A stretch of 64,000 bases of DNA, taken from positions 1 through 64,000 of the forward strand of contig NZ_LYBV02000039.1 of assembly GCF_001660705.2 (NCBI RefSeq), given 5' to 3'. A program made the translations under genes and the position numbers. This document shows, piece by piece, positions 27,394 through 56,032 of this stretch. The notes below the pieces were generated by a model, which saw only the letters and a list, made by a program, of their open reading frames with translations, made no database searches and was not told the DNA's origin. The stretch's first letter is position 1; each line of letters starts with the position of its first letter. The stretch comes from Saccharicrinis aurantiacus (GTDB lineage: Bacteria > Bacteroidota > Bacteroidia > Bacteroidales > Marinilabiliaceae).

Positions 27394-28425
27394 ATGCGAA
27401 ATATTACATTAAAAAGAGTAACTACTATAACTACTTTTGTTTACTCAACCATAACAATTCTCTTTTTCTTAATTAATTATTTCTCAAGCAACATTGTGAT
27501 TTCCTTATTGATATCTACTCCTATTTCAATTGGTATTTTTGCAATTTACACACACTTTTCCATAAAGAGTTATATAAATACCAAAATTAAACCCATTTAT
27601 AAAACCATACACAACTTTAATGCTGGTACTCCTGATTTTCAGCACCTATCCAACAGTGAACCCTTAAAAACAGTATCGCTCGAAGTGGCAGATTGGATAC
27701 AAGGTAAAACCAAAGAAATACAAGAATTAAAGCAAACCGAAAAATATAGAAAAGAGTTTTTAGGTAATGTATCACACGAATTAAAAACACCAATATTTAA
27801 TATACAAGGTTATATTTTAACCTTAATGGATGGAGGCATTGACGATCCGAATATCAATATGCTGTACTTAAATAGAACAGAAAAAAGTATTGATAGAATG
27901 ATCAGTATAATTGAAGATCTTGAAGCCATATCTAAACTAGAAGCAGGTGAGTTAGAAATTAAAAAAGAAACCTTTAACTTATTTCAGCTCATTGAAGATG
28001 TATATGATATGCAAGATATTCGAGCTAAGGATAGAGATATTACTTTAAAACTAAACAAAGCAGGCCAAAAGCAATTATTAGTAAATGCAGACAAACAGCG
28101 AATTTTTCAGGTAGTAAGTAATCTAGTTCTTAACTCTATAAATTACGGTAAAACAGGAGGAAAAACCAGCATTAACTTCTACGATATGGATAATAGATAC
28201 CTTATTGAAGTAAAAGATAATGGTACCGGTATAAAAGAAGCTGATTTGCCACGAGTTTTTGAACGTTTTTACAGAGCTGATAAAAGCAGATCGCGTCAGC
28301 AAGGTGGCACTGGTTTAGGTTTAGCAATTGTAAAACACATTATAGAAGCACACAATCAAACAATTAATGTTACAAGTACGTTTGGTAAAGGAACAAGCTT
28401 TACTGTAACCCTTGAAAAAGGTTAA
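27394..28425 (+). CDS. Sensor histidine kinase (PhoR-like)
   Basis: 343 residues. Two N-terminal transmembrane helices (about 10-30 and 35-52) with almost no periplasmic loop, a linker, then HisKA with phosphoacceptor in FLGNVSHELKTPIFNI (His at about residue 126) and HATPase with N-box VVSNLVLNSINYG, G1 VKDNGTGI, F-box VFERFYRADKSRS and G2 QGGTGLGLAIVK. A tiny sensor loop is typical of PhoR-type kinases that sense through a transporter complex. The response regulator gene follows after 113 bp. The phosphate link is inferred from domain layout and the nearby PiT gene. Confidence 0.9.
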   Translation: MRNITLKRVTTITTFVYSTITILFFLINYFSSNIVISLLISTPISIGIFAIYTHFSIKSYINTKIKPIYKTIHNFNAGTPDFQHLSNSEPLKTVSLEVADWIQGKTKEIQELKQTEKYRKEFLGNVSHELKTPIFNIQGYILTLMDGGIDDPNINMLYLNRTEKSIDRMISIIEDLEAISKLEAGELEIKKETFNLFQLIEDVYDMQDIRAKDRDITLKLNKAGQKQLLVNADKQRIFQVVSNLVLNSINYGKTGGKTSINFYDMDNRYLIEVKDNGTGIKEADLPRVFERFYRADKSRSRQQGGTGLGLAIVKHIIEAHNQTINVTSTFGKGTSFTVTLEKG

Positions 28426-28538
28426 GTAAGGATACTAAAAACTTTAATTAACGATAATTTCACGTTATAATAAAGGTATCGAAATGTAATATAAATTGTT
28501 TTATGTAATTTCATGCCGATAAATAATGCGCCAAAAAT

Positions 28539-29240
28539 ATGATGGAAGCGAATAGTTATAAGATTTTACTGGTTGATGACGAGCCAGATATATTAGAGTT
28601 TGTAAGTTACAACCTAAAAAAAGAAGGTTACCACGTTCTTACCTCAGAAAATGGAAGTGCTGCCATTGAAGTAGCCAAGAAAGAACTACCTCACTTAATT
28701 ATTTTAGATGTTATGATGCCTGAAATGGACGGCATTGAAACTTGTGAAGAAATTAAAAGGATTCCATCTTTAAAAAACGCCATTATTGCATTTTTAACAG
28801 CAAGAAATGAAGATTATTCGCAAATTGCTGGCTTCGAAGCTGGTGCTGATGATTACATTTCAAAACCTATAAAACCAAAGGTATTGATATCAAGAGTTAA
28901 AGCTCTTTTAAAAAGATATCAACCTGAAAGTTCTTCAAATGATAATGTTCAAAGCAGCATTATTGAAATAGGAGATTTAACTATCGACAGAGAAAAGTAT
29001 GTTATCATTAATAAAGGCGAAGAACTTGTACTTCCTAAAAAAGAGTTTGAGTTATTGATGCTTTTAGCTTCTAAGCCTGATAAAGTGTTTACACGAGATG
29101 AAATATATAATTCGGTATGGGGCGATAGTATTATTGTAGGTGATAGAACTATTGATGTGCATATTAGAAAAGTTAGAGAAAAAATTGGCCAAAACCATAT
29201 CAAAACCATTAAAGGGGTAGGATATAAGTTCGTTGAATAA
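28539..29240 (+). CDS. OmpR/PhoB-family response regulator
   Basis: 233 residues. Receiver domain with acidic pocket DDEPD (residues 11-15), phosphoacceptor in ILDVMMPEMDG (Asp54-56 region), conserved Thr/Lys in FLTARNED and DDYISKPIKP, then a winged-helix OmpR domain (KKEFELLMLLASKP, VFTRDEIYNSVWG, RTIDVHIRKVREKIG, IKGVGYKFV). Partner of the kinase encoded just upstream. Expected targets are phosphate genes if the PhoB assignment is right. A rho-independent terminator follows the gene. Confidence 0.92.
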   Translation: MMEANSYKILLVDDEPDILEFVSYNLKKEGYHVLTSENGSAAIEVAKKELPHLIILDVMMPEMDGIETCEEIKRIPSLKNAIIAFLTARNEDYSQIAGFEAGADDYISKPIKPKVLISRVKALLKRYQPESSSNDNVQSSIIEIGDLTIDREKYVIINKGEELVLPKKEFELLMLLASKPDKVFTRDEIYNSVWGDSIIVGDRTIDVHIRKVREKIGQNHIKTIKGVGYKFVE

Positions 29241-29265
29241 AATAAACAATTCATAAAATAAAATT

Positions 29266-29295
29266 AGCATTCTTGTATTAGAATGCTTTTTTTTG
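29266..29295 (+). terminator. Terminator after the response regulator gene
   Basis: Stem AGCATTCT/AGAATGCT (29266-29273, 29280-29287) with 6-nt loop followed by T8. Confidence 0.85.
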
Positions 29296-29371
29296 CTGAA
29301 TAAGTAAAAAAAAATCCATTATTATATTAAATAATTTATATTTTTAGGCGATTCACTAATTTTACAGACTC

Positions 29372-29794
29372 ATGAATAAAATCCTGCTCCTATCAATAGC
29401 CCTTGTTTTAATTATCACTTCATGTGGAGAGAGTGAAAAAGAAGCTAAGAAACAAGTTAAAAAAGAAGTAGTTAAAAAGCCAGTTGTTGTTAAAGATACA
29501 ATCCCAGAAGAACCTATTGAGGAACCTGTTTATGAGGAGCCAAAACCAGTAGAACCTAATAAATACTTTTTAATTATTGGTTCTTTTGAGAAAGAAAGTA
29601 ATGCTTATAAATTGCGTGACGAGTTAACTGAACAAGGTTTTGACTCTGAGGTAATAGTAAGACACTCCCGAGAAAATCAAGAGTTCTATAAAGTATCGTA
29701 TAAAGGTTTTAGTGATAGAGATGAAGCTTTTAATGAACTATCAATGGAAAGAAAATTACCAAATAATCAAGATGTTTGGTTACTTATAAAATAG
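29372..29794 (+). CDS. SPOR-domain lipoprotein
   Basis: 140 residues. Lipobox IITSC (Cys18), a Lys/Glu/Pro/Val-rich linker (about 20-62), then a SPOR domain (about 65-138: KYFLIIGSFEKESNAYKL, LTEQGFDSEVI, FYKVSYKGFSDRDEA) that binds denuded peptidoglycan glycans at division sites. Single-gene unit bounded by terminators on both sides. Confidence 0.88.
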   Translation: MNKILLLSIALVLIITSCGESEKEAKKQVKKEVVKKPVVVKDTIPEEPIEEPVYEEPKPVEPNKYFLIIGSFEKESNAYKLRDELTEQGFDSEVIVRHSRENQEFYKVSYKGFSDRDEAFNELSMERKLPNNQDVWLLIK

Positions 29795-29812
29795 GATAAA
29801 GAAATACTAGGG

Positions 29813-29845
29813 GCCTGTTAGATTAATTTCTAACAGGCTTTTTTT
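29813..29845 (+). terminator. Terminator after the SPOR lipoprotein gene
   Basis: Perfect 10-bp stem GCCTGTTAGA/TCTAACAGGC with 6-nt loop, followed by T7. Confidence 0.9.
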
Positions 29846-29920
29846 ATTATAATAAACACAAACTAGGCTTAATTATTGTTGCAATAAAAAATTCACAAAA
29901 AAAATAAAGAACTTATTACA

Positions 29921-30616
29921 ATGAAGAACTACAAACTGCAACTGTCGTTAAGTTTTATAATGTTGTCTATAACAACATCTGTATTAGCCCAAGGTAATGA
30001 TAAGTTAGGATCTTGGTATGTTTATAATGGCTTCTTCAATTTTAGCCCCAAAACTGAATTATTTGTTGAAGGTCAATGGCGAACCTACGAACCGATATCA
30101 AACAATCAAAACGTTTTCTTTAGACCATTCTTTAGTTATAATATTCACCCAAGTTTTCAAGTTGGACTTGGTCAGGAATACCATATGAGTTATAACTACA
30201 CCGAAAACAAGGAAGATAAAACAAAGAATGAAGAGTTTAGAACAACACTTCAGGCAATTGCCAAACATAAGGTTGGAAGAGTAAACTTTCAACATAGATA
30301 CAGATATGAATTTAGGTTTTTAGAAAACACAAACGAACAACGCGCAAGGTATCGTCTGCAACTTGGGATACCATTAAATGCCAAAGAAATGGGGAAAGGC
30401 GTATTTTTTACAACCATTGGTAACGAAATACTTCTAAATACTAAACCAAGCTTAAACCTAAGCCAAAATAGAACCTATGCAATGTTGGGCTACCAAATAA
30501 CCGAAAGTACCCATTTACAAGGAGGCTATATGAGAATCAATTATTCAGATGCCACTTCTCATAATCGTTTACAGTTTTTTATAACACAAAAATTAAACTT
30601 CTTCGATAATAACTAA
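29921..30616 (+). CDS. DUF2490-family outer-membrane protein
   Basis: 231 residues. Signal peptide (1-24, VLAQ), then a beta-rich protein with alternating aromatic strands (LGSWYVYNGFF, KTELFVEGQWRTYEP, GLGQEYHMSYNY, VNFQHRYRYEFRF) and a terminal strand LQFFITQKLNFF, matching the DUF2490 family of small predicted outer-membrane barrels. Function unknown. Stands alone between the SPOR gene and the acyl ligase. Confidence 0.8.
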   Translation: MKNYKLQLSLSFIMLSITTSVLAQGNDKLGSWYVYNGFFNFSPKTELFVEGQWRTYEPISNNQNVFFRPFFSYNIHPSFQVGLGQEYHMSYNYTENKEDKTKNEEFRTTLQAIAKHKVGRVNFQHRYRYEFRFLENTNEQRARYRLQLGIPLNAKEMGKGVFFTTIGNEILLNTKPSLNLSQNRTYAMLGYQITESTHLQGGYMRINYSDATSHNRLQFFITQKLNFFDNN

Positions 30617-30801
30617 TCCAATAGCATAAGTAGCTCCGTAAAACTTAATTATAATTCTGATGGCAAGATTATTGCCTATTGAATAAGGTAATAATTATTA
30701 CATGCGATATTTAACATGTTTTTTAAATATTACAATACCTAAATTTGTTTTAACCACTAACCGTAATTAATTTTTGGTAAAAAGTACTAGCATATCATAT
30801 T

Positions 30802-32442
30802 ATGGATAATAATGGATTTATTGGAATGGTGGAGAAAGCCCTAAAAAGCTTTAATAACCAAAAAGCATTCGCTGATTTTGATGGCGATTCTTTTACATAC
30901 AATGATGCAGCTAAACGCATAAATAGCTTGCACAAAATGTATAATAACTGTGGTATTAAAAAGGGCGATAAAATTGCTCTTATTGGTAGAAACCTCAGTA
31001 ACTATACCATTAGCTATTTATCTGTGGTAACCTATGGTGCTGTTGTAGTTCCAATTTTGCCTGACTTTGGAAGTAGTGAAATACACCACATTGTAAACCA
31101 TTCTGAATCTAAATTACTATTCTCTACAGAAGTTATTTTTAATAAGATTGATGAAGCAAAAATGCCAAATTTAAAAGGCATTATTAGTATTGATAAGTTT
31201 GTTGCATTGGCAAATGGCTGTGATGACATTAGTGCTAATTCAATTCTATTGGAAAAACTAATGCAAGAACCTTTTGAAATAAAGGACCTCAAATTTGATG
31301 AAATAGGAGAGGAAGAGTTGATGGTTCTTTCATATACCTCAGGTACTTCAGGCTTTTCAAAAGGAGTTATGATACCACACAGAAGTATTTGGTCTAATGT
31401 TAAATTCGCTCAAGATAAATTTGATTTAACATCAGGAGAACGAATTGTTTCGTTTCTACCTCTTGCCCATGCTTATGGTTGTTTGTTTGAATTTTTGTGG
31501 CCATTTACTGTTGGTTGCGAAATAACTCTATTAAGTAGAGTACCATCACCTAAAATTATTACAGAAGCATTTCAAAAGATAAAGCCACATTTAATATTGG
31601 CTGTTCCATTAATTCTAGAAAAGATATTTAAAAAACGAATTCAGCCAGCTTTAGAGAAAGGAGCAGCAAAAACACTAGTTAAAGTGCCTCTGTTAAATCA
31701 GGTAGTATTCTCTAAAGTTAAAAACCAATTAGTTGATGTTTTTGGTGGAGAGTTTAGAGAAATAATAATTGGTGGGGCAGCACTAAATAAGGATGTTGAA
31801 GATTTCTTAAGAAAAATAGGCTTTCCGTTTACTATTGGATATGGAATGACTGAATGTGGTCCGCTAATTAGTTACGAGCCATATAAAACAGCTAAACCTC
31901 GCTCAGCAGGTCGCTTAGTTGATAGGATGGAAGTTCGTATTGACTCAAAAGATCCTTATAATGAAGTTGGTGAAATTTTAGTGAAGGGCGATAATAATAT
32001 GCTTGGTTACTTTAAAAATAGCGAAGCCACAGCACAAACAATAGATGCTGAAGGCTGGATACATACAGGAGATTTAGGTGTTATTGATGCTGAAAACTTC
32101 ATATTTATAAAAGGCCGCAGTAAAAATATGATTTTAAGTGGATCAGGCCAGAACATCTATCCTGAAGAGATTGAAACCAAACTATGCAGTATGGATTACG
32201 TTCAGGAATGTTTAGTTAGAGATATGGGCGATGGCAAATTAGAAGCTTTAGTATACCCCGATTTTGAATTAGCTGATGCCGAAAATATTCAGGAAAAGGA
32301 ATTATCAGTAATAATAGCTGATTTAAAAAATAAAGCTAATGCTGAATTACCTGCCTATATGAACCTATCTAAGGTAACTGAAGTTCCAGAAGAGTTTGAT
32401 AAAACCCCAAAAAAGAGTATCAAAAGATACAAATACATATAA
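30802..32442 (+). CDS. AMP-dependent synthetase/ligase (long-chain acyl-CoA ligase type)
   Basis: 546 residues of the ANL superfamily. The AMP-binding P-loop is LSYTSGTSGFSKGVM (about 178-192), followed by YGMTECGPLISYEP near residue 350, GWIHTGDLGVID near 424 and the C-terminal hinge FIKGRSKNMILSGSGQNIYPEEIE near 434 with the catalytic Lys in the final segment TPKKSIKRYK. Activates a carboxylic acid as acyl-AMP then probably acyl-CoA. The acid, likely a fatty acid, cannot be read from sequence. A hairpin terminator follows at 32511. Confidence 0.9.
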   Translation: MDNNGFIGMVEKALKSFNNQKAFADFDGDSFTYNDAAKRINSLHKMYNNCGIKKGDKIALIGRNLSNYTISYLSVVTYGAVVVPILPDFGSSEIHHIVNHSESKLLFSTEVIFNKIDEAKMPNLKGIISIDKFVALANGCDDISANSILLEKLMQEPFEIKDLKFDEIGEEELMVLSYTSGTSGFSKGVMIPHRSIWSNVKFAQDKFDLTSGERIVSFLPLAHAYGCLFEFLWPFTVGCEITLLSRVPSPKIITEAFQKIKPHLILAVPLILEKIFKKRIQPALEKGAAKTLVKVPLLNQVVFSKVKNQLVDVFGGEFREIIIGGAALNKDVEDFLRKIGFPFTIGYGMTECGPLISYEPYKTAKPRSAGRLVDRMEVRIDSKDPYNEVGEILVKGDNNMLGYFKNSEATAQTIDAEGWIHTGDLGVIDAENFIFIKGRSKNMILSGSGQNIYPEEIETKLCSMDYVQECLVRDMGDGKLEALVYPDFELADAENIQEKELSVIIADLKNKANAELPAYMNLSKVTEVPEEFDKTPKKSIKRYKYI

Positions 32443-32484
32443 ACATCAGTAATTACGCGTAACATTAACATCGTTTAACTTTTG

Positions 32485-32519
32485 TTTGTACTAGTTCACT
32501 ATACTTTAAGCTACATTTG
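32485..32519 (+). promoter_or_regulatory. Possible promoter TTTG-N23-TACATTTG for a short transcript
   Basis: TTTG at 32485-32488 and TACATTTG at 32512-32519; the latter overlaps the terminator hairpin of the acyl ligase. It would start a transcript of roughly 85 nt ending at the hairpin at 32577-32608. The 23-bp spacing is at the upper limit, and the overlap with a terminator stem may explain the match. Confidence 0.3.
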
Positions 32520-32536
32520 TAATGTAGATTTTTTTT
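32511..32536 (+). terminator. Terminator after the acyl ligase gene
   Basis: Stem CTACATT/AATGTAG around a 3-nt loop (32511-32527), followed by ATTTTTTTT. Confidence 0.75.
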
Positions 32537-32576
32537 CATAGATTTAGATTTGGTTAACAAAGCTGATTTTAAGGGT

Positions 32577-32608
32577 AAAGGATAGATGTTTTCATCTATC
32601 CTTTTTTT
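32577..32608 (+). terminator. Second strong terminator in the gap before the metal ABC operon
   Basis: Stem AAAGGATAGATG/CATCTATCCTTT with TTTT loop and T7 run. It is 135 bp after the acyl ligase stop and 41 bp beyond the first terminator, so it may back up the first or end a short RNA. Confidence 0.85.
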
Positions 32609-32693
32609 ATGCCCCATGGCCATCTTCTTATTATTCCCTCCCGCTTAAATAGGTTTTAAATAATAAACACCCGCTCTTTAGTTATTTTTCTGC

Positions 32694-32723
32694 TTATAGC
32701 TATAAAATTAAAAAGTACATTTG
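32694..32723 (+). promoter_or_regulatory. Promoter and palindromic operator of the metal ABC operon
   Basis: TACATTTG at 32716-32723 fits TAnnTTTG, 29 bp before the ATG. Just upstream, in the spacer, is the perfect palindrome TTATAGCTATAA (32694-32705), well placed for a metal-responsive repressor (Fur/Zur/MntR class). The regulator identity is inference. Confidence 0.5.
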
Positions 32724-32751
32724 CAGCTATACATTTATAGATTTTATTAAA

Positions 32752-33645
32752 ATGAACTGCACAAATAAATATTTCTCAATATTAAGTATTGTATTAGTAC
32801 TTCTAGCCATTACACAAACATCATGTACTGAAAGTAAAACTGATAAAACTGAAATTACAGTCAGTATTCTACCTCAAAAATATATTGTTAACCAATTGCT
32901 CGGAGATTCTATTAAGGTAAATGTAATGGTATTACCTGGCAATAGTCCGGCTACATATTCACCCACTCCTTCCCAAATTAAAAACCTACACAGTTCAAAA
33001 CTTTATTTACGTATCGGACATATTGGTTTTGAGCAAAACTGGATGGATAAAATAGCATCTATAGATAGTGATATTATAATTGCTGATGTTTCTGAAGGTG
33101 TTCAATTAATAAAAGGCGAAGCTGTGGTTCATGGAGATCATGTACACGAAGGAGGTATTGACCCGCATATTTGGACATCGCCCAGAACGATGATGACTGT
33201 AATTACAAATACTAAAGATGCATTACTTAAGCATTTTCCAGAACACAGTGCGTTAATAGAAAAAAACTATCCAACACTCTTAGAAAAAGTAAAAGCATTA
33301 GATCTAAAATTTACAGAAAGTTTTAAACCACATGAGGGAAGCAAATTTTTAATTTTTCATCCTGCATATACCTATCTTGCACAAGATTATAATTTAGAGC
33401 AAATTTCTATTGAAAATGATGGAAAAGAGCCAAGTGTAAAGTGGTTACAAACTATAATTGAAAAAGCCAAAGCAAATAATATAAATGCAATTTTTATCCA
33501 ACAGGAATTTGATTCAAGAAATGCAGAATTAGTTGCTAAAGAATTGGATATTGATATTATAAGTGTTAACCCATTAGCGGAGGATTGGATTACTGAAATA
33601 AACAATACTCTCAATACACTTGTTAACTCCTTTCAACAAGATTAA
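32752..33645 (+). CDS. Metal ABC transporter substrate-binding lipoprotein (ZnuA/TroA family)
   Basis: 297 residues. Lipobox TQTSC (Cys25), then the cluster A-I binding-protein fold: VSILPQKYIVNQLLG, VLPGNSPATYSPTPSQ (about 63-78), RIGHIGFEQNW, a short His loop with GIDPHIWTSP near 137, FLIFHPAYTYLAQDY near 202, and IFIQQEFDSR near 246. In typical ZnuA proteins the SPxxY motif carries a His ligand (PHxY); here it is Ala (SPATY), so the site must use other ligands. Zn or Mn is likely. First gene of a three-gene importer operon with 2-bp gaps. Confidence 0.88.
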   Translation: MNCTNKYFSILSIVLVLLAITQTSCTESKTDKTEITVSILPQKYIVNQLLGDSIKVNVMVLPGNSPATYSPTPSQIKNLHSSKLYLRIGHIGFEQNWMDKIASIDSDIIIADVSEGVQLIKGEAVVHGDHVHEGGIDPHIWTSPRTMMTVITNTKDALLKHFPEHSALIEKNYPTLLEKVKALDLKFTESFKPHEGSKFLIFHPAYTYLAQDYNLEQISIENDGKEPSVKWLQTIIEKAKANNINAIFIQQEFDSRNAELVAKELDIDIISVNPLAEDWITEINNTLNTLVNSFQQD

Positions 33646-33647
33646 TA

Positions 33648-34391
33648 ATGGACAGTTTAATTTCATTACATAATGTATCTGCTGGTTATGAACCGAACCA
33701 AGCTGTTTTGCGAAATATCAATTTAGATATTAAGCAGAATGACTTTATTGGTATAATTGGTCCAAATGGGGGAGGGAAGTCCACTCTTTTAAAAGTTATA
33801 CTAGGGCTATTACCTATTCAGAAAGGAAAACTTAATTACGCCTGGAAAAATAACAAGCACTACATTGGTTATCTTCCGCAAAGCAATGAAATAGATACAA
33901 AATTCCCCATCAAGGTAAGCGAAGTTGTTTTATCTGGTATTATGGGTAGTAAAAGTTATTTTGGAAAATACTCTAAATCCGACAAAAATAAGGCTAACGA
34001 GTTATTAGATAAATTAGGGTTAACGGAATATAAAAATAACACAATTGGAGAGTTATCGGGTGGGCAAAGACAACGAGCTTTCCTAGGGAGAGCTATTATT
34101 AATAAGCCGTCTGTTTTAATTTTAGATGAACCTAATACCTATGTAGATAAGCATTTTGAAGGGGAATTATACAACATGCTAAGTGAGCTAAATAAAGAAA
34201 TGGCCATATTGTTAGTTTCGCACGATATTGGAACTATATCACCTATAATAAAAACGATAGCTTGTGTTAATGAAGAACTTCATTATCATAACAGTAATAA
34301 AATTTCAGAAAAAGTACTTTCAACCTATAAGTGCCCTATTGAATTAGTTGCACACGGACACGTTCCGCATAGGGTACTAAACCAACATTAA
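33648..34391 (+). CDS. Metal ABC transporter ATP-binding protein
   Basis: 247 residues. Walker A GPNGGGKSTLLK (about 38-49), signature GELSGGQRQRAFLGRA near 132, Walker B SVLILDEPNTYVD near 155 and the switch His in VSHDIG. Family of ZnuC/TroB-type ATPases. Starts 2 bp after the binding protein and ends 1 bp before the permease gene. Confidence 0.93.
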   Translation: MDSLISLHNVSAGYEPNQAVLRNINLDIKQNDFIGIIGPNGGGKSTLLKVILGLLPIQKGKLNYAWKNNKHYIGYLPQSNEIDTKFPIKVSEVVLSGIMGSKSYFGKYSKSDKNKANELLDKLGLTEYKNNTIGELSGGQRQRAFLGRAIINKPSVLILDEPNTYVDKHFEGELYNMLSELNKEMAILLVSHDIGTISPIIKTIACVNEELHYHNSNKISEKVLSTYKCPIELVAHGHVPHRVLNQH

Positions 34392-34392
34392 A

Positions 34393-35220
34393 ATGTTAGA
34401 ATTCTTCGAATTATTTCAATACAAATTTTTCACAAATGCGCTTTTGGCGGGTTTATTAACAAGCATTTTAGCTGGTATTATTGGCACCTATATAGTATCG
34501 CGCAGAATTGTTTTTATTAGTGGAGGAATTACCCATGCTTCATTTGGAGGCATTGGAATTGCTTATTTTCTGGGCCTTAATCCGTTTTTAGGGGCTGCTG
34601 TATTTGCAGTTTTCTCTGCTTTAGGTATTGAGTGGTCGGCGCAAAAAGCAAAAGTAAGAGAGGATAGTGCCATTGCTATTCTCTGGTCATTAGGAATGGC
34701 CATAGGTATCATTTTTGTTTTTATGACACCTGGCTATACACCAAACCTAATGGGTTTTCTTTTCGGAAATATACTAACAGTTACTACTACAGATATAATT
34801 GTTACGGCCATATTTGCGTTAATTATTATTGCCGCCAACATTCTTTTTTTTCGACCTATTTTGTACACTGCCTTTGATGAGAACTATGCATCTACCACAG
34901 GTTTAAATGTTAAACTCATCAAGTATAGCATGGCAGTTGCTGTTGCATTGGCAATTGTATTAAGCATACGAATTGCTGGTATTATACTAGTATTATCCTT
35001 ATTTACTATACCACAAGCAGCTTCAATGCTGATAACTAAAGATTATAAAAAAATAATATTTTGGTCTATCCTTTTTGGTTTTATAGGAATAATTGCCGGA
35101 TTAAGTGCTTCTTATTTTATGGATATCCCATCGGGTGCAACCATAATATTTGCATTAATAAGCATATGGATAATGATTAGAGCTGTAATTTTTATAAAAG
35201 ATAAACTGAATTTAAAGTAG
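34393..35220 (+). CDS. Metal ABC transporter permease (ZnuB/TroC family)
   Basis: 275 residues with about eight transmembrane helices; conserved ABC-3 segments LLTSILAGIIGTYIVSRR, FISGGITHASFGGIGIA, FSALGIEW and IPSGATIIF. Completes the Zn/Mn-type importer. Its last codons overlap the convergent ispD gene by 9 bp. Confidence 0.92.
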   Translation: MLEFFELFQYKFFTNALLAGLLTSILAGIIGTYIVSRRIVFISGGITHASFGGIGIAYFLGLNPFLGAAVFAVFSALGIEWSAQKAKVREDSAIAILWSLGMAIGIIFVFMTPGYTPNLMGFLFGNILTVTTTDIIVTAIFALIIIAANILFFRPILYTAFDENYASTTGLNVKLIKYSMAVAVALAIVLSIRIAGIILVLSLFTIPQAASMLITKDYKKIIFWSILFGFIGIIAGLSASYFMDIPSGATIIFALISIWIMIRAVIFIKDKLNLK

Positions 35221-35871
35221 GCATTCTCCAATCTTTAAATCCATTGGTGTGGTTACTTTTATATTTTCTCTATTACCATCAACCAAATGGATTTGTTTTC
35301 CGAGCTTTTCAACAACACTAGCATCATCTGTAAATAATTCACTAAAACCTTGTTTATAGGCTTCTTGTAGTATTTCTGAAGTAAAAACCTGGGGGGTTTG
35401 TACCATCTTATAAACCGATCTATCAACAGCAACACTGGTACTATTTTGAATTTCTCTTATGGATTCAATGGCATCAGTAACTGGTATGGCATTGCCATTA
35501 ATTTCTGCCGCAGCATAACATCGCTCCAGAGTACCTGAACTAACAAGAGGACGAACTCCATCGTGGACTCCAACAAGGCAAGGTTCACTTATTTCCTTTA
35601 AACCATTTTGTACACTATGGAATCTAGTATTTCCTCCTTCAGTAATCGTGTGCTCAATTTTAAAAGAGTGATCAATACACAACTGTTGCCAATAACTCAC
35701 TTGAGTGGATGGAAGCACTAAAACAACCTTAATTTCATCATCAAAATTGTGAAAAGCACGGATAGTATGCATCAAAATCGGTTCGCCTTTCAATAACAAA
35801 AATTGTTTTGGTATATCACTTTTCATTCGCGATCCGCTACCCCCTGCAACAATAATAACAGCTTTTCTCAT
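35212..35871 (-). CDS. ispD: 2-C-methyl-D-erythritol 4-phosphate cytidylyltransferase
   Basis: About 219 residues. N-terminal nucleotide-binding loop IIVAGGSGSRMKSDIPKQF, HDGVRPLVS near residue 100, IPVTDAIESI near 127 and QTPQVFTSEIL near 160 are the IspD/TarI signatures. It makes CDP-methylerythritol from CTP in the non-mevalonate isoprenoid pathway. The frame continues to 35898, but the ATG at 35869-35871 (MRKAVIIVAGG) gives the standard family N-terminus. TarI (ribitol-phosphate) is an alternative, less likely here. Confidence 0.9.
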   Translation of the reverse strand: MRKAVIIVAGGSGSRMKSDIPKQFLLLKGEPILMHTIRAFHNFDDEIKVVLVLPSTQVSYWQQLCIDHSFKIEHTITEGGNTRFHSVQNGLKEISEPCLVGVHDGVRPLVSSGTLERCYAAAEINGNAIPVTDAIESIREIQNSTSVAVDRSVYKMVQTPQVFTSEILQEAYKQGFSELFTDDASVVEKLGKQIHLVDGNRENIKVTTPMDLKIGECLL

Positions 35872-36007
35872 ACTTTTAATTTGATGATTCAGCATCAAAA
35901 TTAATCAAAAGTTAGGCATCCAGATTAAAGCAGTGTGTAAATATTTATCTAATGATTTTTTAGTATTCTATTTGTACCTTGAAATCCTAAATAAAAATAT
36001 AGAAAAT

Positions 36008-36667
36008 ATGCTACCAGAAGGAATATTTGATTTTTTAGTGCAGTTAAGTATTAATAACAATAAAGAATGGTTTCATAACAATAAGCCTTTCTACCAAAAA
36101 GCTAAAACAGATTTTGAAACTTATGTGGATGAATTAATTGGCTTAACTAACAATATTGATAAAAGGATAGGTCATCCTAAAGCAAAAGACTGTACGTTTA
36201 GAATTTTTAGAGATGTAAGATTCTCGAATAATAAACTACCTTATAAAAATAACTTTGGAGCCCATATTAACCGCGATGGACGCAAGAGTATATATGGAGG
36301 ATATTATTTGCATATTGAGCCTGATAATAGCTTTATAGGCGGTGGCATCCATGTTCCGCAACCTAACGAATTAAAGAAAATACGTTCCTTCATTTTAGAG
36401 AATCCCGAGGAGTATAGAAGCATTATTAACGATAAAACATTTAATACAATGTTTCCTGAAATGTATGGAGATAAATTAAAAACTGCTCCTAAAGGATTTG
36501 ATAAGAATGATGAAAATATTGCTTTAATCAGAAATAAATCATACACTGTTATAACTCAATTAAGTGATGATGAAGTCCAATCATCTGAATTAAATACAAT
36601 AATTGAAAACACTTTTAAAACTATAAAACCACTGAATGACTTTTTAAATGAAGCTCTAGAAAACTAA
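36008..36667 (+). CDS. DUF2461 (TIGR02453-type) protein
   Basis: 219 residues. Matches the DUF2461 layout: FLVQLSINNNKEWFHNNKPF at the start, IDKRIGHPKAKDCTFRIFRD and PYKNNFGAHINRDGRKS around 75, GGYYLHIEPDNSFIGGGIH near 97 and LKTAPKGFDKNDENIALIR near 157. Cytosolic; function unknown. The frame extends 25 codons upstream to 35933 but that extension is Leu/Tyr-rich and unlike the family; the ATG at 36008 is used. Confidence 0.88.
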   Translation: MLPEGIFDFLVQLSINNNKEWFHNNKPFYQKAKTDFETYVDELIGLTNNIDKRIGHPKAKDCTFRIFRDVRFSNNKLPYKNNFGAHINRDGRKSIYGGYYLHIEPDNSFIGGGIHVPQPNELKKIRSFILENPEEYRSIINDKTFNTMFPEMYGDKLKTAPKGFDKNDENIALIRNKSYTVITQLSDDEVQSSELNTIIENTFKTIKPLNDFLNEALEN

Positions 36668-39330: not shown

Positions 39331-39346
39331 CGTTTCACGTGAAACA
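39331..39346. other. Chromosomal parS site (CGTTTCACGTGAAACA)
   Basis: 15 of 16 bases match the widely conserved ParB-binding site TGTTTCACGTGAAACA, with a perfect 14-bp palindrome GTTTCACGTGAAAC. It is intergenic between hemW and the VanZ gene, so not explained by coding. About 3 kb left of the proposed origin. Confidence 0.85.
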
Positions 39347-39413: not shown

Positions 39414-39821
39414 ATGCGCCTATTAAAATCTTATATACGAACCATACTGGTAATAATATCTATATCGATACTAAGCCTTATGAATGTTGGTAAAGTAGTA
39501 CCAAACGATATTAATTTTTTCAAACACATTGATAAGTTAGTCCACTTTTGTATGTATTTTGGGTTAAGCTTCGTATTTCTACTTGAGAACCATGCTCATA
39601 AAATACACATTAAAAAAAGATGGATTGTTTTAGATACCATTGCGATTGGTATAATAATGGAGTTTTTACAACTGTATTTAACAAGCACTCGAAACGGAAA
39701 CATTTACGATGCTATTTTTAATTTTTTAGGTGTATGTTTTGGCACTGGCTTATTTTTAATACTTAAAAACAAGCCAACTGTATACAAGTTATTTCTGATA
39801 AAAGTAGATTATAATAAATAA
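39414..39821 (+). CDS. VanZ-family membrane protein
   Basis: 135 residues, four predicted transmembrane helices (about 10-28, 41-58, 71-90, 101-121). The VanZ pattern is visible in DKLVHFCMYFGLSFVF, GIIMEFLQLYLTSTRNGNIYDA (shown to IIMEFLQLYL and NIYDAIFNFLG). Function in most bacteria is unknown, with the glycopeptide-resistance name inherited. Convergent with, and overlapping by 13 bp, the Rrf2 gene. Confidence 0.85.
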   Translation: MRLLKSYIRTILVIISISILSLMNVGKVVPNDINFFKHIDKLVHFCMYFGLSFVFLLENHAHKIHIKKRWIVLDTIAIGIIMEFLQLYLTSTRNGNIYDAIFNFLGVCFGTGLFLILKNKPTVYKLFLIKVDYNK

Positions 39822-41825: not shown

Positions 41826-42263
41826 TTAACAAGGAATCTTATTTATACGGTTTTGATGTCTGCCACCCTCAAATTCTGTAGTAATAAAGGCTTCAATAAT
41901 CTCTTTAGCCTCCTCTACTGAAATAAAACGAGCTGGTAACGAACAAACATTAGCATTATTATGAGATCGAGCTAACTCTGATATTTCTTTATTCCAACAT
42001 AAAGCAGCTCTAATTCCTTGATGCTTATTAGCTGTCATATTAATACCATTTCCGCTTCCACAAACTGAAATACCCAAATCGGCAACGCCACTCTCAACAG
42101 AATTAGCCATAGGATGTGCATAATCAGCATAATCAGTACTCTCTGTAGAATTAGTACCAAAGTCAGCAACAACAATACCTTTAGCGCTAATAAATTCTTT
42201 CAACTCCTCCTTTAATTCGTAACCTGCATGATCGGCAGCAAAAGCAATTTTAGTAATTTTCAT
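41826..42263 (-). CDS. rpiB: Ribose-5-phosphate isomerase B
   Basis: About 145 residues. AFAADHAGYELKEEL, VADFGTNSTESTDYADYAHP, ADLGISVCGSGNGINMTANK, IRAALCWNKEISELARSHNN and NVCSLPARFIS are RpiB signatures, including the active-site Cys in VCGSG. Interconverts ribose 5-phosphate and ribulose 5-phosphate. The frame runs back to 42296, but the ATG at 42261-42263 (MKITKIAFAADHAG) is the family start and lies 11 bp after the promoter element. Last leftward gene before the proposed origin. Confidence 0.95.
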   Translation of the reverse strand: MKITKIAFAADHAGYELKEELKEFISAKGIVVADFGTNSTESTDYADYAHPMANSVESGVADLGISVCGSGNGINMTANKHQGIRAALCWNKEISELARSHNNANVCSLPARFISVEEAKEIIEAFITTEFEGGRHQNRINKIPC

Positions 42264-42273
42264 TTTTTTGTTG

Positions 42274-42281
42274 CAAAGATA
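42274..42281 (-). promoter_or_regulatory. -7 element TATCTTTG of rpiB
   Basis: Exact TAnnTTTG on the - strand, 11 bp before the ATG, implying a nearly leaderless transcript and excluding the longer start. Confidence 0.6.
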
Positions 42282-42299
42282 GAAAATGTACTGCATATA

Positions 42300-43166
42300 A
42301 GTTGCTAATAAGCTACTTTATACACATTAGTTTATAAACGGATAATGCACTTATATGCAGTAATGTGATAACTATTTAAACAACATACTACACATCTTTT
42401 CAACATATGAAATGACAATTATGACCGGTAATTTACTAGTCAACAATTCATTACTGTGAATAACGTGTGGATTCATGTTAACAATATGTGAATTGTAAAT
42501 TAAAAGAATATAAAAGTTTTTCTTGGAGTTTTGTAATTTTTAAATAAGCCTATGAGAGTTATTAAATGTCAAGTAAATTTTATAATAGTTTACTACTAAT
42601 TTCTAACAGTGTTTAAACACCAAAATTGGGAGTTAATAAGGTAATGTTATTAGATATTGTTAGTTTAAACAGTATGTTAATTAACTATTAAATATCACTA
42701 TTATACAATAGGTTAGCATTTAAAATTACTGTTAATTAAGTTTTAATTGATAGAATGTAAATGTTCATTGCAATTTAAAGCAACTAAAATCTCAATTATT
42801 TATAAACCGAATTAACAGCCTATTATCATTATCATTTTTCTTTTTAAAATTCTATCAGTTTATATTAATCTATTGTGTGAAAGAAAAGTTTAGTAACCAA
42901 TTGTTACGTTTTTTAATTTAAACAGGGTTTCATTTTATTCTAGAGAGATTGACTTTGATATTCGTTTCTAATCTATTTTAAAGCTAGTTTTAGTTAGTTA
43001 ATTACATAAAATAAGGAATAACTCATGATTCTTTTTTAATGTCTAAAAATAACTTGTATTTCGATTTTCAAGGATACGTGTTTCTTCTAGTTTACTACTT
43101 ACTTCACCTTTTAGATGATTCAACACTATTTTATAAAATTAAGTACTGTTGAATCAATATTCTTAT
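42300..43166. other. Candidate chromosomal replication origin (oriC)
   Basis: The longest gene-free stretch in the window. It contains exact DnaA boxes (TTATNCACA): TTATACACA at 42318-42326 on + and TTATTCACA at 42455-42463 on -, plus two-mismatch relatives at 42466-42474 (GAATCCACA) and 42487-42495 (CAATTCACA), all on -. TTTAAACA occurs at 42375, 42612, 42664 and 42917, the second inside the palindrome GTGTTTAAACAC. A 120-bp very AT-rich tract follows. Genes to the left read left and those to the right read right. parS sites flank at 3 kb and 11 kb. dnaA is not adjacent, which is usual in parts of this phylum. Function is inferred. Confidence 0.65.
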
Positions 43167-43193
43167 TAAATTTGCATTCTTTTATAAGTAGTA
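43093..43193. repeat. Nested inverted repeats upstream of nadA
   Basis: Outer arms TACTACTTA (43093-43101)/TAAGTAGTA (43185-43193) and inner perfect arms TGATTCAACA (43116-43125)/TGTTGAATCA (43147-43156). The inner right arm ends 10 bp before the promoter element TAAATTTG at 43167. They could be a regulator site for nadA or part of the origin. Confidence 0.6.
43167..43174 (+). promoter_or_regulatory. -7 element TAAATTTG, probable nadA promoter
   Basis: Exact TAnnTTTG, 190 bp before the nadA ATG, with GTTG 15-18 bp further upstream. It implies a leader of about 180 nt that contains the hairpin pair ATTTCAAA/TTTGAAAT (about 43255 and 43287). Confidence 0.45.
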
Positions 43194-43363
43194 AGTGTTG
43201 CTATTTATTATGATGATAATAAGTGTTTTAGTTGTTATTTCATATTTGACTCGAATTTCAAATACAAGTAATTTTTTATTGAAAGTTTGAAATACATCTC
43301 ATCAACAGTCTATTGTCGTTTTAATTTTAGATATTAAATATCTTTTATACATTCTTTATTATA

Positions 43364-44359
43364 ATGGAGTTAAAGGAAAATTGGTTGAAGCAAGGATATG
43401 TAGATGAGTCTATATCAAATATTGATAATTTAGAAGAGTCATTTGCAAAATTGAAAAAAGAGAAGAATGCTGTTTTAATGGCTCATTTTTATCAAGATGA
43501 TTTAATTCAGGATATCGCAGATTTTGTTGGAGATAGTTTGGCCTTGGCTCAATTTGCTGCTAAAACAGATGCAGATATTATTATGGTAGCTGGTGTCCAC
43601 TTCATGGGGGAAACCGCTAAAATTCTTTCGCCAAAGAAAACAGTTCTTGTTCCTGATTTAAATGCCGGATGTAGTTTAGCAGATAGTTGTCCTCCCGATG
43701 AATTTGAGAAATTTATCAATCAGTATCCAGATCATAAAGTAGTTACTTATGTAAATACATCTGCTGAAATTAAAGCATTATCTGATATTGTGGTTACTTC
43801 TACAAATGCTAAAGCCATAGTAGATAGTTTCCCTGCTGATGAAAAGTTAATTTTTGGACCTGATCGTAACCTGGGTAATTACATAAACGGTATTACAGGA
43901 AGAGAAATGATCCTATGGGATGGAGCCTGTCATGTTCATGAGAAGTTTTCACTCGAGAAAATTTTAGAACTAAAGAAGGAAAATCCAGATGCTGAAATTT
44001 TAACGCACCCTGAATGTAAAAAGCCATTATTAATGGTTTCAGACCACGTTGGTTCAACAGCTTCATTATTAAATTATAGTCAATCTAGTAGCTCAAATAA
44101 ATTTATTGTTGCTACTGAGGCAGGTATTTTGCATCAAATGCAATTAAAAAGCCCTGATAAAGTTTTTATACCTGCACCTCCTAATGATAGTACTTGTGCA
44201 TGTAATGAGTGTGAGTTTATGCGTTTAAATACCATGCAAAAAATTTATAATGCATTAAAATATTCTTGGCCAACTGTTGAAGTTGAAGAGGATGTAAGAG
44301 TTAAAGCTGTTAAGCCAATTGAGCGTATGCTCGATATCTCAGCAAAATTAGAGCTATAA
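43364..44359 (+). CDS. nadA: Quinolinate synthase
   Basis: 331 residues. MAHFYQDDLIQDIADFVGDS (substrate His/Gln), MGETAKIL, and the three Fe-S Cys in NAGCSLADSC (about Cys109), ILTHPECKKP and CACNECEFM (with Cys near 288). Condenses iminoaspartate with dihydroxyacetone phosphate to make quinolinate for NAD. First rightward gene after the proposed origin. nadB and nadC are not adjacent. Confidence 0.95.
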   Translation: MELKENWLKQGYVDESISNIDNLEESFAKLKKEKNAVLMAHFYQDDLIQDIADFVGDSLALAQFAAKTDADIIMVAGVHFMGETAKILSPKKTVLVPDLNAGCSLADSCPPDEFEKFINQYPDHKVVTYVNTSAEIKALSDIVVTSTNAKAIVDSFPADEKLIFGPDRNLGNYINGITGREMILWDGACHVHEKFSLEKILELKKENPDAEILTHPECKKPLLMVSDHVGSTASLLNYSQSSSSNKFIVATEAGILHQMQLKSPDKVFIPAPPNDSTCACNECEFMRLNTMQKIYNALKYSWPTVEVEEDVRVKAVKPIERMLDISAKLEL

Positions 44360-54387: not shown

Positions 54388-54403
54388 TGTTCCACGTGGA
54401 ACT
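54388..54403. other. Chromosomal parS site (TGTTCCACGTGGAACT)
   Basis: 14 of 16 bases match TGTTTCACGTGAAACA counting the compensating T-to-C/A-to-G pair, and the site is a perfect 14-bp palindrome, a common parS variant. It lies in the 22-bp gap between mnmG and ade, so not explained by coding. Confidence 0.8.
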
Positions 54404-54409
54404 TAAATT

Positions 54410-56032
54410 ATGATTTACGAAGGTAATATTGTTGATGTTATTAATTCTCGAATTTTTAAGGGAAGGATAGAAGTCAAAGATGGATTAGTTTTTAAGGTTG
54501 AGGAACGCGATACGGTTTCTGATAACTATATTTTACCAGGACTAGTTGATTCTCATGTTCATATTGAGAGTTCAATGTTAACGCCTAGTCAGTTTTCTAA
54601 ACTGGTTGTTCCACGTGGAACGGTGGCTGTAGTTACCGACCCTCATGAAATAGCTAATGTGTTGGGTATTGAGGGGGTTGATTATATGATTAAGGATGCA
54701 GAACAAACACCCTTAAAATGCTTCTTTGGTGCCCCATCGTGTGTGCCAGCAACTCCTTTTGAGTCGAGTGGGGCCGTTTTGAATAGTGATGATATACAGA
54801 AGCTATTAGAAAGGGATGATATTTGGTTTCTGTCAGAAATGATGAATTTTCCAGGGGTAATAAATCAAGACGAAGAAGTACTTAGTAAAATTAAAGCTGC
54901 CCATAGAAGTGGGAAGAAAATTGATGGTCATGCACCAGGAATAGTTGGGGAAGGTTTGCGTAAATACGCGCAAGCAGGCATCAGTTCTGATCACGAATGT
55001 GTATCAACAGAAGAAGCTATTGAAAAAATAAATAGAGGTATTACCGTTCAAATAAGAGAGGGTAGTGCTGCAAAAAACTTCGATATTTTAGCTGATTTAT
55101 TTCGAACTCATCCTGATGAAGTAATGCTTTGTACTGATGATAGTCATCCTGATGAGATTATAAATAAAGGTCATATAGATAAAATTATAAAGAAGGGTAT
55201 TGCACAAGGTTATGATATTATGTCGCTATTAAGAGCCGCAACATTAAAACCAATTCAACATTATAATTTACCTGTTGGTTTGTTAAGGAAGGGGGATGCC
55301 GCAGATTTTATTATTATAGATAACTTGACTGATTTTAATATTCTAGAAACATATATAAACGGAACGTGTGTTTATAATAATACTTTAAAGTTTGAGGTTG
55401 AAAAATCTACACCTATTAATAATTTTAATATTAGTTCGCTTTCAGAATGTGATATAAAAATTGAAAACCAAATAGGGAAGAAGGTTAGGGTTATTGTTCC
55501 AGTAGATGGTGATTTGTTAACTGATGAGTATTTGTGGGAAACCAATTCTGAAGATGAATATTTGCAACCTTTAGTGGGAGATGACATATTAAAGATTGTT
55601 GTTGTTAATCGTTATAAGTCTGAAAAACCAATTGTTGGATTCATTAAAAATATTGGAATTAAAGCAGGTGCTTTTGCTTGTAGTGTAGCTCACGATAGTC
55701 ATAACTTGATTGCGGTTGGAGTGGATGATCAATCAATAGTTGAAGCATTAAATGCTATTATTGAAGAGAAAGGTGGAATTTCTGTAAAAGACGATTCGGG
55801 GGTAGATATACTCCCTCTAGAGGTGGCTGGTTTAATGACTGCATCCGATGGAGTAGAGGTAGCTCGAAAGTATGAGCAGTTAAATACGAAGGTTCAAAAG
55901 TTAGGATCTCCTTTAAAAGCTCCTTTTATGACTGTTTCATTTATGTCCTTATTAGTTATCCCATCTCTTAAAATAGGAGATAAAGGTTTATTCGATGTAA
56001 ATAGATTCTCGTTTACTAGTTTATTTGTTTAA
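54410..56032 (+). CDS. ade: Adenine deaminase
   Basis: 540 residues. Amidohydrolase metal motif LPGLVDSHVHIESSMLTP (about 43-60), VVPRGTVAVVTDPHEIANV, KIDGHAPGI, GISSDHECVST, CTDDSHPDE and C-terminal SVAHDSHNLIAVG. Hydrolyses adenine to hypoxanthine and ammonia. The stop overlaps the uvrC start (TAATG), so both are co-translated. The VVPRGT codons contain the third parS-like palindrome. Confidence 0.95.
   Translation: MIYEGNIVDVINSRIFKGRIEVKDGLVFKVEERDTVSDNYILPGLVDSHVHIESSMLTPSQFSKLVVPRGTVAVVTDPHEIANVLGIEGVDYMIKDAEQTPLKCFFGAPSCVPATPFESSGAVLNSDDIQKLLERDDIWFLSEMMNFPGVINQDEEVLSKIKAAHRSGKKIDGHAPGIVGEGLRKYAQAGISSDHECVSTEEAIEKINRGITVQIREGSAAKNFDILADLFRTHPDEVMLCTDDSHPDEIINKGHIDKIIKKGIAQGYDIMSLLRAATLKPIQHYNLPVGLLRKGDAADFIIIDNLTDFNILETYINGTCVYNNTLKFEVEKSTPINNFNISSLSECDIKIENQIGKKVRVIVPVDGDLLTDEYLWETNSEDEYLQPLVGDDILKIVVVNRYKSEKPIVGFIKNIGIKAGAFACSVAHDSHNLIAVGVDDQSIVEALNAIIEEKGGISVKDDSGVDILPLEVAGLMTASDGVEVARKYEQLNTKVQKLGSPLKAPFMTVSFMSLLVIPSLKIGDKGLFDVNRFSFTSLFV
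54607..54622. other. Second parS-like palindrome, inside ade (TGTTCCACGTGGAACG)
   Basis: Same 14-bp palindrome GTTCCACGTGGAAC as the site 219 bp upstream. It encodes part of VVPRGT, a segment conserved in adenine deaminase, so protein coding alone could produce it; the pair spacing nevertheless looks like a parS doublet. Confidence 0.6.

Follow-up and report, generated by a model that had tools for sequence, protein, structure and literature searches.

In Saccharicrinis aurantiacus, rpiB and nadA are separated by a gap of 1,067 bp (positions 42297..43363, no strand assigned) that is, judging from sequence comparison, almost certainly the replication origin, oriC, of the chromosome. The window analysed here is the first 64,000 bp of contig C33, which measures 124,897 bp and is one of the 69 contigs of a 5.88-Mb draft genome. 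Strand composition, the clustering of parS sites, the conservation of a core and the way in which this core tracks the skew turn place the origin in the gap, which had been proposed as oriC in a first-pass annotation of this DNA. On the left the gap is bounded by rpiB on the minus strand (41826..42296; Pfam LacAB_rpiB, 8.4e-57) and on the right by nadA on the plus strand (43364..44359; Pfam NadA, 6.7e-118). Eight proteins were named by Pfam and a TrmH-like and an RNase R-like gene by eye; the other gene names are those of the first-pass annotation, which had also given the sequence and coordinates of 42300-43363 correctly. It had called the region the longest gene-free stretch, and the gap is indeed the longest between open reading frames of at least 90 aa in the 64-kb window; no open reading frame of more than 37 aa lies inside it. 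Its statement that the genes read away from the gap on both sides holds nearby but not at 27-36 kb, where plus-strand genes are found on the left. At 27394-36667 an island of mostly plus-strand genes with mostly positive GC skew is embedded in the left arm, which has negative skew. The named loci closest in NadA are those of Saccharicrinis, Plebeiobacterium and Carboxylicivirga, the group to which the organism belongs. The order rpiB-gap-nadA recurs in 21 of 80 named nadA loci. To the left of the gap, these 21 loci carry hemW, rrf2, in most of them the open reading frame at 39,414 and in some of them lutB; to the right they carry a response regulator, ruvB and, where the locus reaches that far, mnmG.

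Cumulated over bases 1 to 124,000 of the 124,897-bp contig, G-C reaches its minimum at 42,454, one base from a DnaA-box-like site at 42,455. Because the 69 contigs of the S. aurantiacus genome are not ordered, its whole-chromosome skew was inferred from relatives, for which we used a near-complete congener with a 5.93-Mb contig (G003). It was sampled at 40 places, each 20 kb long, of which 39 were set at equal intervals between base 1 and 5.65 Mb. The skew is negative in 20/20 stretches between 1.63 and 4.44 Mb; in the other half, which runs from 4.445 Mb past the contig end and on to 1.50 Mb, it is positive in 18/20, the two exceptions being at 0 and 4.74 Mb. The only sustained turn from negative to positive coincides with the orthologous rpiB-nadA gap (4,444,373-4,444,883, minimum at 4,444,398), and the opposite sustained turn lies between 1.50 and 1.59 Mb. 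In another relative, G015, the minimum at 2,108,493 is again within the orthologous gap (2,108,484-2,109,081), with the expected sign in 10/10 samples up to the locus and in 6/6 after it. The skew check proposed in the first-pass annotation thus returned a minimum in the gap on the contig itself and in the orthologous gaps of both relatives.

The dnaA gene of S. aurantiacus lies on another contig, C9, and that of G003 at 1.78 Mb (C3:1782634-1784064, L244), 2.66 Mb from the origin, so that an oriC adjacent to dnaA is found in neither genome and the earlier suggestion of an oriC away from dnaA is borne out. According to PMC4755523, such a distance is common in Bacteroidetes. An origin elsewhere, for instance at dnaA on C9, would require the skew turn in the gap to be a local effect of gene direction. 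Gene direction does turn at the gap, and the skew has another local change of sign at 27-36 kb. However, dnaA of G003 is located near the opposite skew turn, 90-93% of the way to it from the origin, no sustained sign turn was found at dnaA in the stretches read of G003 or of C9 (10 x 20 kb of 218.5 kb), and the contig of dnaA is devoid of exact parS cores. We therefore regard an origin outside the gap as extremely improbable. A simple dif-like pattern had no match in the terminus stretches read of G003 or in the C9 stretches. In G015, a draft rated 99% complete, family and protein searches returned no DnaA, likely due to an assembly gap. Ten short, weak matches to the AAA region of DnaA, in open frames of 215-254 aa, were seen on contigs C3 and C4 of G003; they perhaps represent the ATPase of an insertion sequence present in many copies.

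All three exact 14-bp parS cores of the 5.88-Mb genome lie near the gap, within 12.2 kb, in line with the earlier remark that parS sites flank it. They are GTTTCACGTGAAAC at 39332..39345, the single exact one in the genome, and GTTCCACGTGGAAC at 54389..54402 and at 54608..54621, the only two exact ones (no strand assigned to any of them); we take both sequences to be forms of parS. With up to two mismatches to the parS 16-mer, four further places on other contigs were matched, and a reversed control pattern matched three. In all nine genomes of the genus that were searched, the present one included, GTTTCACGTGAAAC is found at most 4.2 kb from nadA and GTTCCACGTGGAAC occurs at two sites; this pair is on the contig of nadA, about 10 kb beyond the gene, in 8/9 genomes and on another contig in G005. 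One extra GTTTCACGTGAAAC lies 0.21 Mb away in G003.

With the entire gap as query, BLAST recovered no more than 8 of 41 genomes, and a profile was therefore used instead. This sequence-only model, R1, has 231 positions and was built from 22 aligned rpiB-nadA gaps, including that of the window. Its match at 42634..42852 on the plus strand (E 5.3e-21), which we call the oriC core or copy A, is the single significant one in the genome, the next best having an E value of 0.03. A genus HMM trained with the window left out gives 199.5 bits over 42373-42869. The first-pass annotation had stressed two exact boxes; the best-conserved part of the gap is instead this core, and conservation in relatives, which it had proposed as a check, was confirmed for it. 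At E<=1e-4, R1 has a match in 26 of the 41 genomes and in 74/80 named nadA loci. Six nadA-bearing relatives have no match at this threshold (G012, G025, G033, G034, G036 and G037); in a smaller search, a weak one (E 1.4e-4) lies upstream of nadA in G034, at a distance of 149 bp. All 11 further genomes that were searched whole, none in the training set and one of them G009 again, have a match, with best E values of at most 7.4e-9. Among 119 genomes of the class, 29, including that of S. aurantiacus, have one match each at E<=1e-4 and 90 have none. Exceptions to one match per genome, beside the weak second copy in S. aurantiacus, are G007 and G044, where a second match is adjacent. Two adjacent R1 matches were also seen upstream of nadA at two Parabacteroides loci (L074, 9467-9984; L088, 9487-9986) and are possibly further tandem origin copies.

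The skew turn accompanies the core in most of these loci. Where nadA loci extend at least 4 kb to both sides (61 of the 77 with a match), the skew minimum is at the element in 40/61 and off it in 21/61, and the skew is negative to the left and positive to the right in 50/61 and not so in 11/61. Of the 28 other matches in the class, 20 loci were read, 18 of them from other orders. Their skew is negative to the left and positive to the right of the element in 17/20, three right-hand values rounding to +0.00, and shows no sign turn in 3/20; the minimum is at most 1.5 kb from the element in 14/20.

The position of the core suggests an alternative: the conserved block might serve nadA as a promoter or 5′ leader, for instance through a regulator or riboswitch site, instead of being an origin. 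All 26 matches in the 41 genomes are just upstream of nadA in the same reading direction, at a distance of at most 60 bp in 25/26 (511 bp in the window of S. aurantiacus). Rfam returned no family that reaches its gathering score at the block. Of the 20 class loci, which were found with R1 alone, 17 have rpiB beside the element and 13 have nadA, but in 7/20 the stretch read has rpiB without any match to nadA. Two genomes in which block and nadA are uncoupled largely refute a nadA control region. In Phocaeicola vulgatus a gene for 772 aa (L069, 7575-9893) is inserted between the element and nadA. Over 20 stretches of this genome the skew is negative in 8/8 before the locus, positive in 9/9 after it and then negative in 3/3; the turn from negative to positive, at 1,539,822, falls within the element (1,539,631-1,539,827) and 2.6 kb from nadA, and dnaA, with which the record begins, lies 1.54 Mb from the origin. 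The element of Parabacteroides sp. PF5-9 is located between the TrmH-like and the RNase R-like gene, and the 16 kb read contain no match to nadA; the skew minimum falls 83 bp from the end of the element, and no comparable skew turn was found at the nadA locus. Since in both genomes the skew turn is found at the element and not at nadA, the element follows the origin, and a role in nadA control is very unlikely.

The gap to the left of the core contains the two boxes named in the first-pass annotation, TTATACACA (42318..42326, plus strand) and TTATTCACA (42455..42463, minus strand). Both fit TTATNCACA, but each is one mismatch away from TTATCCACA; the second aligns with boxes of relatives, whereas the first has no aligned box in alignment A1. 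Together with the box-like sites GAATCCACA (42466-42474), TTGTTAACA (42476-42484) and CAATTCACA (42487-42495), all on the minus strand, TTATTCACA forms a left cluster at 42455..42495, where relatives of the genus show TGTGnATAA..TGTTnATAA..TGTGAA in alignments A1 and A2. Neither alignment was used for counts; rows L013, L018 and L019 of A2 are reverse-stranded and row L004 of A1 contains rpiB sequence. A perfect 14-nt inverted repeat (42289-42302/42349-42362) has no aligned counterpart in A1.

Over 54 loci, the consensus of the core reads TT.TTAA.TTTG ... TaT.AACa...TGTtaAtA ... TGTT.Ataa ... ttTat.AAC..tat.AACAg.cTATtAT.At. Its first block, conserved as TTATTAAATTTG in the alignment of relatives, has the form TTATTAGATATTG in the window (42647..42659, plus strand). 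It is followed by an inverted pair of box-like sites, GTTTAAACA (plus) and TAATTAACA (minus), at 42663..42683 (consensus TaT.AACa...TGTtaAtA), by another box-like TAATTAACA at 42730..42738 on the minus strand (column consensus TGTT.Ataa), and by a rightward tandem of box-like sites, TTTATAAAC-CG-AATTAACAG, at 42799..42818 on the plus strand (consensus ttTat.AAC..tat.AACAg). The adjoining segment, 42819..42870 on the plus strand, consists of a short C-rich joint, the DnaA-trio-like CTATTATCATTATCATT (consensus cTATtAT.At) and AT-rich DNA, and we propose it as the putative site of first unwinding. A box with one mismatch to TTATNAACA at 42800 is followed after a spacer of 13 by 8 loosely defined triplets; the pattern sought, a DnaA box no more than 16 bp from three or more DnaA-trios, is no commoner here than expected by chance, 35 to 107 of 200 shuffles equalling it in four settings.

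Two boxes of the form TTATNCACA, the only ones in the gap, occurred within a stretch of 1,067 bp in 15 of 2,000 dinucleotide shuffles, and 15 sites with at most one mismatch to TTATN[AC]ACA were reached in 16 of 500 shuffles. The four TTTAAACA motifs of the first-pass annotation are present on the plus strand of the gap and were matched by 0 of 2,000 dinucleotide shuffles. Across the 64-kb window there is no clear excess of boxes with at most one mismatch (30 against 21.8 expected, 6 of 100 shuffles having as many) or of TTTAAACA (14 against 13.3 expected). TTTAAACA was dropped as an origin element, since only some of the relatives carry it at the recurrent position, about -235 to -262 relative to nadA. 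Fitting motifs de novo with expectation-maximisation converged on AT-rich palindromes, and the result was set aside. Across 23 origin sequences, TTATNAACA has 32 copies in 19 sequences (shuffle mean 3.9, maximum 11, n=200) and TTATNCACA has 12 copies in 10 sequences (shuffle mean 1.15, maximum 5), to which the window contributes 0 TTATNAACA and 1 TTATNCACA. To judge by these counts, the main box of the relatives is TTATNAACA and not TTATCCACA, a new finding. The core of S. aurantiacus is atypical, with no exact TTATNAACA and two TNATNAACA. Domain IV of DnaA usually carries the motif DHTT, which contacts box bases. In S. aurantiacus, G003 and P. vulgatus it reads DHATVLHAC (3/3).

The gap in S. 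aurantiacus is about twice as long as usual, probably because it contains a degenerate second copy of the origin. Gap length is 402-682 bp in 18 of 20 measurable genomes and exceeds this range only in S. aurantiacus (1,067 bp) and G007 (1,338 bp). The putative second copy, copy B, spans 43001..43362 on the plus strand and retains TTATTAAATTTG (43163-43174) and the box TCATCAACA (43299-43307), both on the plus strand. The genus HMM, made from nine genus sequences, two of them the copies of G007 and the window excluded, was run on the plus strand; copy B is its second-best match in the 64-kb window, colinear with HMM positions 158-522, at 60.3 bits, compared with 34.3 bits at the next place and with a best score of 46.5 bits among 500 shuffles of the right segment, none of which scored as high. 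The left and right halves of the gap align colinearly over about 430 bp with a score that 6 of 1,000 shuffles attain. In pairwise comparison copy B reaches z values of 3.0-5.1 with six of the nine genus sequences but only 0.8-1.9 with the other three. An unrelated AT-rich spacer at 43,001-43,362 would account for these low values, for the score of only -2.7 bits given by R1, for a resemblance to the tested non-congeneric origins that exceeds that of shuffles little or not at all (z -1.4 to 2.1) and for the very long branch of copy B in the tree. The HMM score, the six genus sequences and the colinear halves argue against such a spacer, and we consider it rather unlikely. A mobile element as the source of 42,850-43,350 was not supported, the segment having no second copy in the genome and a best other match of 23 bp (E 0.009). 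The right half of the gap, and with it the extra length, is thus probably a decayed tandem copy of the origin.

A better preserved case is found in G007, where two well-kept tandem origin copies, aligned over about 455 bp and scoring 93 and 81 bits, lie between rpiB and nadA (C219:321923-322985, L230); the stretch between them possibly contains the remnant of a gene. In the tree this pair of copies clusters together (99/99), which indicates a separate duplication in G007. Shared ancestry of the duplications in S. aurantiacus and G007 is accordingly unsupported, and the place of copy B in the tree is unsure.

We propose that DnaA, the product of a distant gene, would bind the leftward box cluster at 42455-42495 and, within the core (42663-42818), the TNATNAACA-like boxes that are arranged in pairs and in tandem. 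It would then oligomerise and open the AT-rich stretch around 42819-42870; the helicase would be loaded there, and two forks would depart in opposite directions. ParB bound to the three flanking parS sites may subsequently segregate the origin region. We infer these roles, including which boxes matter and the side of unwinding, from the arrangement of the sites; copy B may be inactive or auxiliary.

More broadly, we speculate that Bacteroidia keep one ancestral origin with a fixed core some 200 bp in length and boxes of the TTATNAACA/TNATNAACA type, read by a DnaA with DHAT in place of the usual DHTT, while the flanking genes change. The whole origin would have been duplicated in tandem in S. 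aurantiacus, with the copy on the nadA side decaying, and since both G007 copies look intact, some chromosomes might have two adjacent origins. This scenario as a whole is tentative, and we hold it to be slightly less probable than its negation. Origins of Bacteroidota are mostly placed by skew and boxes of the E. coli type, and few canonical boxes are present here. A core model that usually marks one site per genome where it matches would help in placing origins in draft genomes, would improve growth-rate estimates from read depth and would make the DnaA box code of Bacteroidota directly testable. The tandem copies would represent natural cases of origin duplication.

The oriC described here belongs to a known kind; its interesting features are the widely shared core, the variant boxes and the tandem copies. 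The titles and abstract beginnings among the literature matches listed, a set with subscription papers and DoriC records outside it, gave no account of the core or of the rpiB-nadA setting, and we do not claim priority. The E. coli oriC combines a box array with an AT-rich unwinding side. The gap resembles it in both respects, and mnmG (gidA) is about 10 kb away; it differs in having few TTATNCACA boxes and in the presence of parS sites. Like the basal unwinding system of Bacillus subtilis (PMC8287927, PMC6669920), the core has tandem boxes, a short joint, a triplet repeat and AT-rich DNA on the expected side; in contrast to that system, its boxes are TNATNAACA-like, its triplets fit 3'-GAT-5' only partly, the pattern as a whole is no commoner than in shuffles and it is not beside dnaA. 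With predicted Bacteroidota origins of the DoriC/Ori-Finder type, such as that of Prevotella intermedia OMA14 (PMC4755523), it has in common the skew turn, the box cluster and the distance from dnaA. Compared with predictions of this type, the present analysis describes in addition a conserved core, its flanks and a probable second copy.
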